This document shows, piece after piece, positions 15,108 through 33,499 of a stretch of DNA of 51,638 nt. This DNA comes from Nitrosotalea sp. Its GTDB lineage: Archaea > Thermoproteota > Nitrososphaeria > Nitrososphaerales > Nitrosopumilaceae. The translations under genes and the position numbers were made by a program. Position 1 is the stretch's first letter; every line of letters begins with the position of its first letter. The DNA lies in the NCBI GenBank assembly GCA_023252235.1, contig JAHEXH010000005.1:1-51638 (forward strand), in the 5' to 3' direction. Under the pieces are notes generated by a model. The model did no database searches. It saw only the letters and a list, made by a program, of their open reading frames with translations, and was not told the origin of the DNA.

Positions 15108-15685
15108 GTATAGTCAAGCGTTCATTTTATGCTCAAGATACGGTAAAAGTTGCCCAAGATTTGCTTGGGAAAACTCTGGTTCGAAATATTAATGAAAATA
15201 TCATTTCTGGAATAATCGTAGAGACTGAAGCTTATCGATACAACGATGATGAAGCAAGCCACTCGTTTAGAGGTATGACTGAACGAAACAAGGCAATGTT
15301 TGGAGAGGTTGGAAGAGCATATGTCTATTTTACATATGGGATGCATTATTGCGTAAATGCTGTAGCACGAAGTCCAGATTATCCGGCAGGTGCAGTCTTG
15401 ATAAGGTCTCTTGTTCCACAAAATGGAGTGGACTTTATGTCAAGGCAGAGAAAAATCTCTGACGTTTCTAATTTGACAAATGGTCCTGCTAAATTAACTC
15501 AGGCATTAAAGATAACAAAGAAGGAATATGGCAAAGATCTAACTAAAAGATCTACGCTGTATGTTATAGATGGGATTAAAGTAAAAAAATCAGAGATAGA
15601 ATCTAGACCGAGAATTGGAATAAAAAAAGCAACTGACAAACTATGGAATTTTAAAATTTCCAAAAATGTTCTTGAAGATAATTAA
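15104..15685 (+). CDS. 3-methyladenine DNA glycosylase (AAG/MPG family)
   Basis: 193 residues, the usual size of the minimal AAG/MPG fold. It excises alkylated and deaminated purines, including hypoxanthine. Recognisable stretches are LLGKTLVRNI, the catalytic-glutamate segment IVETEAYRYNDDEASHSFRG, the YVYFTYGMHYCVNAV strand and NGPAKLTQALKI. The ATG overlaps the stop of the UDG gene (ATGA-type), so repair of deaminated cytosine and damaged purines is genetically linked here. It is convergent with the htrA-like gene, with a 4-bp overlap. Confidence 0.92.
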   Translation: MSIVKRSFYAQDTVKVAQDLLGKTLVRNINENIISGIIVETEAYRYNDDEASHSFRGMTERNKAMFGEVGRAYVYFTYGMHYCVNAVARSPDYPAGAVLIRSLVPQNGVDFMSRQRKISDVSNLTNGPAKLTQALKITKKEYGKDLTKRSTLYVIDGIKVKKSEIESRPRIGIKKATDKLWNFKISKNVLEDN

Positions 15686-16902
15686 GATGATGGAGTAGGT
15701 CTTGCATCAAGTGTGGCAGTTACGTCCACTGATTTTCCTAGTCTGTTAATTGATACCACTACTTTGTCACCAACATTTTTCTGCTCGTCAAGATATGCAA
15801 TGACATCATAGATTGTCTTTACTGGATGGCCGTCTAGTGCAGTTATGATGTCTCCCCCATGAGGAATGTTGTTTTGGTCAGGTGTAGCTGGTGTTATTCC
15901 TGCCTTATCTGCAGGTCCTCCCTTGACTATTTTTTCAATTAGTACACCCTTGAAGTTTCTTGCTAGTCCGTTTGCAAGTGCAACATCTGGGTCTAAACTT
16001 CTTCCAGATATCCCAAGGTATGGATGAGAATAGGTTCCATTTTTGATTAAAACTGGAGCAATCTTGCTTATAGTATTAGATGGTACTGCAAATCCAATTC
16101 CTGCAAAATCACCAGTGCTGGTTCTGATAGCAGTATTCATTCCTATGACTTGGCCATTCAAGTCTAATAGTGGTCCACCAGAATTTCCTGGATTGATTGC
16201 AGCATCCACTTGTATTACATCTGGTATTGAAAATCCTGCAGCGTTCTCATTTGGAAGCAGTCTTCCAACTTGGCTTATTATTCCAGTTGTCATTGTATCA
16301 CTGAGCCCAAATGGATTGCCAATTGCAATGACTTGCTGGCCAACATCAAGTTCTGAGGAATTTCCAAGAGTTAAGGGATAGAGTGGCTCGTCTGAGAAAT
16401 TATCAATTATTTGTATAACTGCAATGTCATTTCCTGGATCAGTACCTACAACTTTTGCAGTGTAAGTATTTCCATCTACAAAAGATACGTTTACTGTCTT
16501 TGATCCGTCAACTACATGATTGTTGGTAATTATTCTTCCATCTTTGTCATACACAAAACCCGAACCAAGTCTTGTAGATTGACTCTCCAGTGGTTGACCA
16601 TTAATTATGATGCCGTTATCTACTGATGATACTTTGCTTGTTATCTGGACTACGGAATTTTCAACTTTCTTGAAAATATGTGTAAGTGTGGAATCTGTTG
16701 TTAATACACTTGAAGATCCAGATCCTGCTGGTCCTGGAGGTCCGGATGGACCTGGTGGACCAGGAGGACCAGGAGGACCAGGAGGACCTTGAACTGTTGC
16801 CTGTGATATGTCGTTTAATGTCCTCCCGTTAGTGAATTGTACTAGAACTGTAACAGATAACGTAATAATTATTCCAATTAGGATCACTTCAAATTTTTTC
16901 AT
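15682..16902 (-). CDS. HtrA/DegP-like serine protease with a collagen-like stalk
   Basis: 406 residues. A signal anchor (about 5-24) is followed by a Gly-X-Y stalk of seven triplets (residues 39-59, GPP four times, then GPS, GPP, GPA). The trypsin-like protease domain has H129 (TNNHVV), D159 (GNDIAV) and S241 (GNSGGPL), and there is one C-terminal PDZ domain (about 300-400). HtrA proteases are trimers that act in envelope quality control outside the membrane. A collagen triple helix is also trimeric, so the stalk could pre-organise or space the trimer from the membrane (inference). The proline/glycine insert is unusual for the family. Confidence 0.92.
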   Translation of the reverse strand: MKKFEVILIGIIITLSVTVLVQFTNGRTLNDISQATVQGPPGPPGPPGPPGPSGPPGPAGSGSSSVLTTDSTLTHIFKKVENSVVQITSKVSSVDNGIIINGQPLESQSTRLGSGFVYDKDGRIITNNHVVDGSKTVNVSFVDGNTYTAKVVGTDPGNDIAVIQIIDNFSDEPLYPLTLGNSSELDVGQQVIAIGNPFGLSDTMTTGIISQVGRLLPNENAAGFSIPDVIQVDAAINPGNSGGPLLDLNGQVIGMNTAIRTSTGDFAGIGFAVPSNTISKIAPVLIKNGTYSHPYLGISGRSLDPDVALANGLARNFKGVLIEKIVKGGPADKAGITPATPDQNNIPHGGDIITALDGHPVKTIYDVIAYLDEQKNVGDKVVVSINRLGKSVDVTATLDARPTPSS

Positions 16903-29658: not shown

Positions 29659-30810
29659 TTAGGAATTCTGTGCGGCTTCGTTTCGGAGCTTCTTTGTAAT
29701 CATCATTTCAATATTGTCGAGAAGATCAATCATTTTTTGTTTATTTGCTTGAAGATATTCTGAACCTTTGTCAATCAGTCTGGCCTTAAACAATCTGATG
29801 TCTCTATGCTCTTCAAAGAAATATTCTATCATCTGTCCTCCCTTCCTTGACGGTTCTATGAATACATCAAACTTTGAAATTATTTCTTTAACATCTCCTT
29901 CTTCAATTGCAGTCTTTGCAGCATGTACTGCCTCGCTTATCTCTTTAAGATTCTGTATTACTATTGGCTGTGATTTTTTTGCAGCTCCCAAGAAACCCTT
30001 CTTTTCTACACCAATCTTTTCAGCCAACTCTGGAACTATTTCATATTCTTCTACCTTTTGTAATCCTAAACTCTTTTCAGTTTTAACGAGTAAACCTTTC
30101 TCAACTAATTTTCTTGCGGCATCTTCTATTTCTAATTTGCCTACCATTGTAGTCCAAACAATTTGGCCGACTTTGCGGTAGCCTTGTCTGACCGATTCCA
30201 ATACTACAACTTCCACAATTCTCCTATATCCTTCATCAGTTCTAATGTTTTCAAAATCTTTGTCTCTTACTGCCTTCTTGGCGTTTTTAACATCGATTTC
30301 AATTGAACGCTTGAGTGCTTCGATTGATTCTGGTATGTGATTCAAAAGTGAGTGATAACATGCTTTGTTGTACCAAGACATTCCATCTGTAGGATTTGAG
30401 TCGATTGCTTTTTCTACACATTCTAAAGCTTTATCGTAATTCTTTTGCCTGTAATAGATCAAACCCTTCAAATTCCAAGATTCTGCATTTGTAACATCGA
30501 TTTCATGAACCTTGTTGTAGGCCTCCATTGCACTTGCTAAATCATTCATGTGAAAACGGGTATATCCTAATTTGAGTAATGAATCAACATGGCCTGGATC
30601 AATTCGTAAAGCATCTTCAAAGGCACGGGCGGCATCATCCATTCTTTCATCTGCCATAAGGGAAACTCCTTTCTTGTAATGCTTGTTTCTAGAATAGTTA
30701 GAATCTGTTAATTTTATATCACTGGATTTATTGTCCATTTCTGACTCTACATTCTCTATCTCCTTGGAAGACTCGCCTTTTTTGTCTCCAAACAATTTCC
30801 TCATGGTCAT
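29659..30810 (-). CDS. TPR-repeat protein with C-terminal winged-helix-like region
   Basis: 383 residues, cytoplasmic. After a charged, probably disordered N-terminus (about 1-40), four tetratricopeptide repeats span about 42-180 (for example DDAARAFEDALRIDPGH and NYDKALECVEKAIDSNP). Residues about 200-270 resemble a winged helix (VGQIVWTTMVGKLEIEDAARKLVEKG), followed by a long helical charged C-terminus. It is probably a scaffold or regulator; partners are unknown. It is convergent with the rhodanese gene (2 bp apart) and divergent from the collagen-like gene, with which it shares a 150-bp promoter region. Confidence 0.85.
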   Translation of the reverse strand: MTMRKLFGDKKGESSKEIENVESEMDNKSSDIKLTDSNYSRNKHYKKGVSLMADERMDDAARAFEDALRIDPGHVDSLLKLGYTRFHMNDLASAMEAYNKVHEIDVTNAESWNLKGLIYYRQKNYDKALECVEKAIDSNPTDGMSWYNKACYHSLLNHIPESIEALKRSIEIDVKNAKKAVRDKDFENIRTDEGYRRIVEVVVLESVRQGYRKVGQIVWTTMVGKLEIEDAARKLVEKGLLVKTEKSLGLQKVEEYEIVPELAEKIGVEKKGFLGAAKKSQPIVIQNLKEISEAVHAAKTAIEEGDVKEIISKFDVFIEPSRKGGQMIEYFFEEHRDIRLFKARLIDKGSEYLQANKQKMIDLLDNIEMMITKKLRNEAAQNS

Positions 30811-30918: not shown

Positions 30919-30960
30919 CATATTGAAAATACAAAAATACTTAGGAATTACACGTAGAAT

Positions 30961-32601
30961 ATGTCATCTAAAGATAACACTATTGAGATAACTGGCGAAT
31001 CGCCCTTTAAGTTATCATCGGGTGTCTTTGAAGTACAAATTGCAATTTGCGATGCTCAACCCTCTTCAGATGAAATTAGACGAAAAAGTTTTCATTCGTT
31101 GTGGAAGGATAACTTTCATCTTAGAGTAAAGGACAAGAGATTTTCACAAACTCTAGGATCTGCAAAAAATCCTTTACCTGATTCAGTATTCCAAAGAGGA
31201 AATGTTTGGATTGTTGTAATTGACCAATTCTCTTCGATTCATACTGGGTTTCAAATTGAGATTCCAAGAACTGGCTCGGAATTTACCGAGCATGCAAAAC
31301 CAGAACAGGAAGTTACAACTCATTTTATAAAATCAGAGCCAGAAATTGTTAGCAGAACAAAACCTGTTACAGAACACTATCCAGGTGAAAGAGGTTCAAG
31401 AGGACCGTCAGGACTTATGGGTCCGCCGGGACCAATGGGACAACCAGGACAGATGGGTCAAGCTGGTATACAGGGTCCTCCCGGACCTATGGGTGTACAA
31501 GGAGACAAAGGCCCACCAGGTCCACCAGGTGATAAAGGAGACAAAGGCCCACCAGGTCCACCAGGTGATAAAGGAGATAGAGGAGACAAGGGACCAATAG
31601 GCGAAAAAGGAATCACTGGAGACAAAGGTCCGCCTGGACCTCATGGTCCACAAGGTGATAAAGGTCCACACGGTCCACCAGGTGATAAAGGAGATAGAGG
31701 AGACAAGGGACCAATAGGCGAAAAAGGAATCACTGGAGACAAGGGTCCACAAGGTGACAAAGGTACTCGAGGCGATGAAGGAGAAAAAGGAGAACGTGGT
31801 GATAAAGGCGACAAGGGTGACAAGGGCGATAAAGGATTAACCGGAGAACTTGGCCCTCTGGGAGAAAAGGGACCAACAGGTCCTCCAGGCCCACAAGGCG
31901 ATAAAGGAATCATCGGACCACCCGGTGAACAAGGTCCAAAAGGTCCAATCGGTGTACAGGGAGACAAAGGTCTACCTGGTCCACAAGGTCCACAAGGTGA
32001 CAAGGGATTAACTGGTCCACAAGGACCCACAGGTGAAAAAGGTCCACAAGGTCCACAAGGTCCAGCCGGAGAAAAAGGTCTCACTGGAATTCCGGGCCCA
32101 CAAGGCGAAAAAGGTCCAAGGGGATTACCAGGCCCAAGTGGTGACCAAGGTCCAAGGGGTACCCCAGGTCCACAAGGTCCTCCAGGTCCACAAGGAATTC
32201 AAGGCCCACAAGGCGAAAAAGGTACTACTGGTCCGCAAGGTGCACCAGGTGATAAAGGTCCTTCTGGAATTCAAGGTTTACCGGGGCCATTAGGCCCATT
32301 AGGTCCACAAGGACCGTCTGGAGATAAAGGTCCACAAGGTGTTCAAGGCCCACAAGGTGACAAGGGATTGACTGGTCCACAAGGACCGTCTGGAGATAAA
32401 GGCCAACAAGGCCCACAAGGACAACAAGGCACACCCGGTGAACAGGGTCCACGAGGCCCACCTGGCCCACCTGGAGATAAGGGTCCTACAGGATTCTCAG
32501 AACAGGAGCGTGCTTTGATAACGCAATTGCTTGAGATTTTATCTTCTAAAAATATGATCACGACTGAACAGCAGATAAAACTGATGAGCTTCCTATACTA
32601 A
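30961..32601 (+). CDS. large collagen-like Gly-X-Y repeat protein
   Basis: 546 residues. A globular head (1-141) that I do not recognise, with no signal peptide or membrane segment, is followed by an uninterrupted run of Gly-X-Y (residues 142-510, exactly 123 triplets by coordinate count). The run is rich in GDKG, GEKG, GPPGPP and GPQGPQ units. A 36-residue tail ([16 protein letters not shown] onwards) is predicted helical and could trimerise the chain. The charge-rich triplets (DKG, EKG, DRG) are the kind that stabilise bacterial collagens without hydroxyproline. The absence of an export signal makes location unclear: cytoplasmic, or exported by an unknown route. Confidence 0.9.
31561..31742 (+). 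repeat. 117-bp-offset internal duplication in the collagen-like gene
   Basis: The stretch beginning CCAGGTGATAAAGGAGATAG at 31561 recurs at 31678 and stays essentially identical for about 65 bp (protein [22 protein letters not shown]). The offset is 117 bp, exactly 13 Gly-X-Y triplets, so unit duplication preserves frame. This is coding-repeat expansion, not CRISPR. Confidence 0.75.
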
Positions 32602-32956: not shown

Positions 32957-33238
32957 ATGAGTACAAAAGATAAAATCGAATTCAAAATGTTAGATCATCA
33001 ACGAGTGGGAGATGAACATGTCACTTTCAAGCTTGAAGATGGTACAATGGTGAAGGTAAAAGTTGATCTTGACAGAGTAGGAATTGCGATAAACTACAAG
33101 AATCCTGATGGAACACCACATTATGCAGTTAATGCATCGCTTAAGCTGTCTATAATTCCTAATGAAAGAAAATTTTTCGTAGAGCCTGATGCAATTAAAG
33201 GTAAATCACCATCACCACCAGGTCAAATGTTTAGCTAA
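32957..33238 (+). CDS. small conserved hypothetical protein
   Basis: 93 residues, soluble, no cysteines. Beta-rich sequence such as DEHVTFKLEDGTMVKVKVDLDRVGIAINY, then PHYAVNASLKLSIIP, and a flexible C-terminus with SPSPPGQM. I do not recognise a family. It is likely a small beta-barrel or sandwich. It lies between the collagen-like gene and the basic repeat protein. Composition and the clear ATG make it a probable gene. Confidence 0.7.
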   Translation: MSTKDKIEFKMLDHQRVGDEHVTFKLEDGTMVKVKVDLDRVGIAINYKNPDGTPHYAVNASLKLSIIPNERKFFVEPDAIKGKSPSPPGQMFS

Positions 33239-33286: not shown

Positions 33287-33499
33287 TTATCTTCTTCTTT
33301 TTGAAGCTGTTCTCTTAGCTTTTCTTGCAGCTGGTTTTCTTGCAGCTGCTCTTCTCTTTGGAGCGGATCGCTTTGCAGCAGATCTTCTCTTTGGAGCACT
33401 ACGCTTTGGAGCAGATCTTCTCTTTGGAGCGGATCGCTTTGCAGCAGATCTTCTCTTTGGAGCGGATCTTTTAACAGCTCTTGTTGATCGTTTTGCCAT
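33287..33499 (-). CDS. lysine/arginine-rich repeat protein resembling a linker-histone tail
   Basis: 70 residues made almost only of K, R, A, S and P. Units such as KRSAPKRRSAAKRSAPKRR and KPAARKAKR resemble the C-terminal tails of eukaryotic histone H1 and bacterial H1-like (Hc1/AlgP-type) proteins. It should be intrinsically disordered, strongly basic and DNA- or RNA-binding; a role in nucleoid compaction is inference. The coding DNA holds a near-perfect direct repeat with a 66-bp (22-codon) period (33351 and 33417). It has no acidic residue. The ATG at 33499 starts MAKRSTRAVKRS. Confidence 0.8.
   Translation of the reverse strand: MAKRSTRAVKRSAPKRRSAAKRSAPKRRSAPKRSAPKRRSAAKRSAPKRRAAARKPAARKAKRTASKRRR
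33351..33464 (-). repeat. 66-bp-period direct repeat inside the basic protein gene
   Basis: A stretch of about 47 bp from 33351 (CTTCTCTTTGGAGCGGATCG onwards) recurs at 33417. It encodes a repeated 22-residue unit, so the gene has grown by in-frame duplication. Confidence 0.65.

Follow-up and report, generated by a model that had tools for sequence, protein, structure and literature searches.

A collagen-like protein without a recognisable export signal is a predicted core gene product of the Nitrosopumilaceae

Results and discussion

A long collagen-like gene in Nitrosotalea

The window analyzed here is a 51,638-nucleotide stretch of DNA from Nitrosotalea sp., a member of the Nitrosopumilaceae whose genome is incomplete (54%). 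An open reading frame at 30961-32601 on the forward strand encodes 546 amino acids by translation, and its predicted product is a real collagen-like protein. The match to the Pfam Collagen family (PF01391; E=1.5e-62, 207.7 bits against a cut-off of 27.2) lies far beyond chance, and the repeat that produces it is the sole part of the protein matching a known family. It is flanked by an N-terminal head of 141 aa (30961-31383, +) and a 35-aa C-terminal tail (32491-32598, +). Glycine occupies every third residue from residue 142, 124 times consecutively (31384-32499), and the 124th triplet (GFS) opens the tail, hence a collagen domain of 123 uninterrupted Gly-X-Y triplets (31384-32490, +). An earlier note made from the DNA letters had described 123 triplets over 1107 bp with an unbroken frame and a richness in charged triplets; translation gave the same count and the same composition (GDK 23, GEK 8), with GPQ (18) and GPP (13) also frequent. 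The DNA coding for the collagen domain carries recent internal duplications (31499-31748, +), with a 36-bp unit at 100% and a 117-bp unit at 93%, both multiples of 9.

Distribution and gene neighborhood

A search with the head detected orthologues in 166 of 200 Nitrosopumilaceae genomes, in 111 of the 119 of good quality, and in all 22 genera searched. Across the class, a profile search matched 188 of 400 genomes and 22 of 82 genera; none of the 60 other genera had a match, and among the matches listed all were Nitrosopumilaceae. Some of the genome misses are probably assembly gaps, because contigs frequently break off within the repeat. Open-ocean Marine Group I members still carry the gene (five loci). 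The organism is an archaeon rather than a bacterium, and on the basis of these searches the collagen-like protein is the product of a core gene of the whole Nitrosopumilaceae, not an oddity.

The order of neighboring genes (reductase, rhodanese, divergent TPR, collagen, GTPase, phosphatase and ArgRS) is largely common to members from soil through open ocean. The TPR protein (29659-30810, -) adjoins the collagen gene throughout the Nitrosopumilaceae and was considered as a co-inherited partner, but this was rejected since it is older than the collagen gene and order-wide, so that adjacency alone is no evidence of interaction. On the other side, duf93 (32957-33238, +) encodes a conserved 93-aa protein. 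At four loci in sister families, TPR and duf93 lie directly beside each other, 49-251 bp apart with no intervening collagen gene, whereas in Nitrosopumilaceae with duf93 at the locus the collagen gene lies between the two. This suggests that the collagen gene most likely appeared at that site in the ancestor of the Nitrosopumilaceae and has been retained since. In many genera, the neighborhood also includes a gene for a very basic 70-aa protein (33287-33499, -) with KRSAPKRRSA-type repeats encoded by a 33-bp tandem repeat, which is perhaps nucleic-acid-binding.

Selection on the repeat

Codon changes were compared in 98 pairs of equal-length orthologues. X and Y codons were replaced at 16% and 18%, respectively, whereas glycine codons showed 47% synonymous differences and zero replacements in 11108 comparisons, a zero that is partly by construction because the runs were picked by unbroken glycine. 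Every chosen run spans from the head linker to the tail (with an N gap in L079). The lack of glycine replacement against the rates at X and Y argues that the triple helix itself is selected for. Triplet numbers across orthologues cluster at 68-72, 101-103 and 117-124, with a few longer, up to 185. The collagen triple helix rises 0.286 nm per residue, which gives a predicted rod of 58-159 nm across orthologues and roughly 106 nm here.

The repeat could instead be a disordered low-complexity spacer that forms no triple helix and changes length by repeat slippage. The internal duplications do show slippage, and hydroxyproline is not expected. Salt-bridge enrichment through KGD/KGE charge pairs was also looked for and rejected, with 7 pairs observed compared to 10.1 in shuffled triplet order. 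We consider such a spacer improbable, as the glycine register is unbroken in orthologues despite frequent replacement at X and Y, proline strongly prefers X (43%) to Y (16%), as expected without hydroxylation, and the GPP-rich C-terminal end of the repeat is near-invariant.

Head and tail domains

AlphaFold2 predicted a beta-sandwich for residues 8-100 of the head, with pLDDT mostly above 90 (mean above 90 for residues 11-100), and a disordered stretch linking it to the collagen domain. WKxNFH and DQFS are among the patches that do not vary between orthologues. The head had been described beforehand as of no known kind, and structure prediction and homologue searches left it as a confidently predicted beta-sandwich to which no known relative could be assigned with confidence. 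No known family was found in Pfam, NCBIfam, PHROGs or PDB sequences, and a fold search of the PDB returned no match below E=0.001; one of the higher-probability matches among solved structures was the adhesin domain 5fce, which was not significant (E=0.07). A fold search of viral models gave two marginal matches that superposed poorly (rmsd 24 and 10). The head also shares the motif LW..V.V..G.FSV.LGS..PLP with a module at the N terminus of secreted bacterial proteins of the 'tail fiber domain' type. Against an approximate consensus of that module, hhalign gave a probability of 62%, while one real member (Flammeovirga) aligned over only 25 columns at 0.4%, and plasmids, phages and viral contigs yielded no usable real relatives. 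It is a lead only.

The tail was predicted as a helical hairpin, with two helices, at positions 28-43 and 49-59 of the modelled C-terminal 60 aa (pLDDT 93-97), consistent with the helical tail anticipated from the letters. Among 38 distinct tails, 11 of 33 positions are invariant, conservation is near-invariant to the final LY, and a 12-residue motif forms the carboxyl end. The tail occurs once per genome, always and only on the collagen-like protein, and is preceded by a near-invariant GPP-rich clamp, the last 10 residues of the collagen domain, kept in almost all orthologues. Sequence and fold searches returned no relative. The SHOCT short C-terminal oligomerisation domain was considered and found no support, with no Pfam SHOCT match at E up to 10 and 3.9% by hhalign to an approximate SHOCT consensus. 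The natural reading of the tail is a putative C-terminal nucleus for a trimer.

Gly-X-Y repeats are common in phage fibers, the repeat has PHROG matches, and virion proteins normally lack a signal peptide, all of which would fit a tail or head fiber from an integrated virus. The head, by comparison, had no PHROG match, no relative in viral contigs and only a marginal match in phages (42 residues, E=0.2). In addition, the gene sits among housekeeping genes in an order shared across the genera sampled. A viral origin is thus largely refuted, and we regard it as very improbable.

Start codon and export signal

An in-frame stop lies two codons 5' of the ATG of the collagen gene, so no upstream start is possible. 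A conserved TATA-like box, AAAATACAAAAATAC (30926-30941, +), lies roughly 26 nt upstream of the start codon. The spacing of the AAATACAAAAATAC box to the start codon is near-constant in 18 of 18 aligned loci, though the starts vary between ATG, GTG and TTG. In archaea, a TATA-like box approximately 26 nt upstream places the start of transcription at the start codon, which suggests that the collagen transcript is leaderless and speaks against a signal concealed further upstream. A hidden upstream start that adds a signal was rejected on both grounds; in one high-GC member (L116), the 5' end is uncertain.

No signal peptide, membrane segment or LPXTG motif was present in any of 52 orthologues scanned, with the absence of a signal peptide judged by hydrophobicity and inspection. 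Over the first 60 aa, the highest Kyte-Doolittle mean for any 12-residue stretch was 1.4, versus 3.05 for an anchored HtrA in the same window. The earlier note had claimed that the protein lacks a signal peptide, which holds for every orthologue read, and had named an upstream start with an added signal peptide as the observation that would count against it; this was looked for and none was found. Its further suggestion, that the protein is either cytoplasmic or uses a novel export route, is supported, as the absence of a signal is no annotation slip.

Signals or anchors are, by contrast, present on other collagen-like proteins encoded in the same order or the same genomes (eleven loci). Those of the Nitrososphaeraceae and relatives likewise contain Gly-X-Y repeats, but differ in often having a signal peptide or N-terminal anchor, in their heads and tails, and in their repeats, most of which are short (about 40-160 aa). 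Two complete genomes belonging to a single genus each have a second, very long collagen-like ORF, one of 2518 aa (L115, G076 C1:1250779-1255806), which opens with a signal-like segment and helical repeats, and one of 1347 aa (G017 C1:551188-553278). Of the eleven loci, L120, L130 and L139 (genome G287) encode large proteins in which an N-terminal anchor is combined with a collagen-like stretch and with CxxCH motifs that recall multihaem cytochromes. The HtrA/DegP-like protease of the window (Trypsin_2 and PDZ; 15682-16902, -) has an N-terminal membrane anchor, then eight collagen-like triplets, mostly GPP, and then the protease domain. These triplets are possibly a collagen stalk on a trimeric protease; a second member of the order has an HtrA with a Gly-X-Y-like start (L122).

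Comparison with known collagen-like adhesins

Similar to streptococcal Scl1 and Scl2 (NCBIfam NF038330 and NF038329), the protein combines a head with a rod of long unbroken Gly-X-Y repeat, through which it scores 291.3 bits to NF038329. It is unlike them in being archaeal, in lacking a signal peptide and LPXTG, and in its unrelated head and tail, and the score is below the curated cut-off of 325, which is exceeded in 1 of 101 family genomes and barely (326.3). The Legionella adhesin Lcl (NCBIfam NF046116) also has a Gly-X-Y repeat with non-collagen end domains, but Lcl is exported, and the match here, at 193 bits, falls short of the cut-off of 500. Judged by these features, this signal-less archaeal collagen does not fit the public label 'LPXTG-anchored collagen-like adhesin'.

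The functions of prokaryotic collagen-like proteins have been listed in a review (PMC8968730). We found no description of this signal-less collagen in the open literature, save a possible mention in PMC13037477; a Red Sea paper (PMC5069720) was rejected as a description because it concerns Euryarchaeota. In the passages of the former report (2026) that concern Ca. Nitrosotenuis chungbukensis MY2, another of the Nitrosopumilaceae, 'LPXTG-anchored collagen-like adhesins' were highly expressed at low salinity, one was detected in the proteome, and a role in the S-layer was proposed. It is plausible that the MY2 adhesin is an ortholog of the gene described here.

The main rival to a cytoplasmic protein is a cell-surface or extracellular fiber exported by a novel route, without a classical signal, for instance in stabilization of the S-layer at low salinity. 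Analogy with other prokaryotic collagens, the beta-sandwich head and the MY2 report speak for such a fiber. The passages of that report on the adhesins, however, give no localization, and the name is that of the streptococcal Scl models; the MY2 gene may also be a different one, as a second collagen ORF, with a signal, is present in some genomes. Since no orthologue scanned has a signal, anchor or LPXTG, and the same group puts ordinary signals on its other collagens, we consider export of this kind less likely than a cytoplasmic location.

A putative cytoplasmic rod

The lack of a recognisable export signal means that the collagen rod may work inside the cell. A homotrimeric cytoplasmic rod of roughly 106 nm, trimerised at its C-terminal end, spacing two partners and vertically inherited, is the best explanation of these sequence features, and we give it about an even chance. 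The orthologues are signal-less, the start is fixed, signal-bearing collagens provide a contrast, glycine is constrained, lengths cluster and the tail is conserved. Against it, the head is predicted to be a beta-sandwich of a kind common in extracellular proteins, with an adhesin domain among its non-significant structural matches, and KGD/KGE pairs are no commoner than in shuffled triplets. To our knowledge, characterized prokaryotic collagen-like proteins are also nearly all on surfaces, spores or virions.

In the proposed assembly, three chains would join by means of the helical hairpin at their C-terminal end and the clamp next to it, nucleating the triple helix. The 123 triplets would then close up in the direction of the N terminus to give a stiff rod, a step suggested by the repeat and by the selection on its glycines. 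At the other end of the rod, three predicted beta-sandwich heads would be carried on flexible linkers. With heads at one end and the trimerised tail at the other, the rod may keep two binding ends at a fixed distance from each other, serving inside the cell as a spacer or scaffold. That it is a collagen dedicated to the cytoplasm, a core-gene product of the Nitrosopumilaceae acting as an intracellular scaffold or ruler, is a more tentative proposal, which we hold at slightly under an even chance.

Prokaryotic collagen-like proteins have been thought of as parts of surfaces, spores or virions that are gained sporadically. Here, a collagen is the product of a near-universal, position-conserved and family-defining gene of ammonia-oxidizing archaea and carries no export signal. 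The labels of 'LPXTG-anchored adhesin' in these genomes can also mislead physiological interpretation. If the protein is exported, it would point to an undescribed archaeal export route. If it is cytoplasmic, cultured species would allow direct tests of how collagen folds and is used within a prokaryotic cell, and archaea that rank among the most abundant on Earth would possess an intracellular collagen ruler or scaffold, outside the usual settings of prokaryotic collagen.
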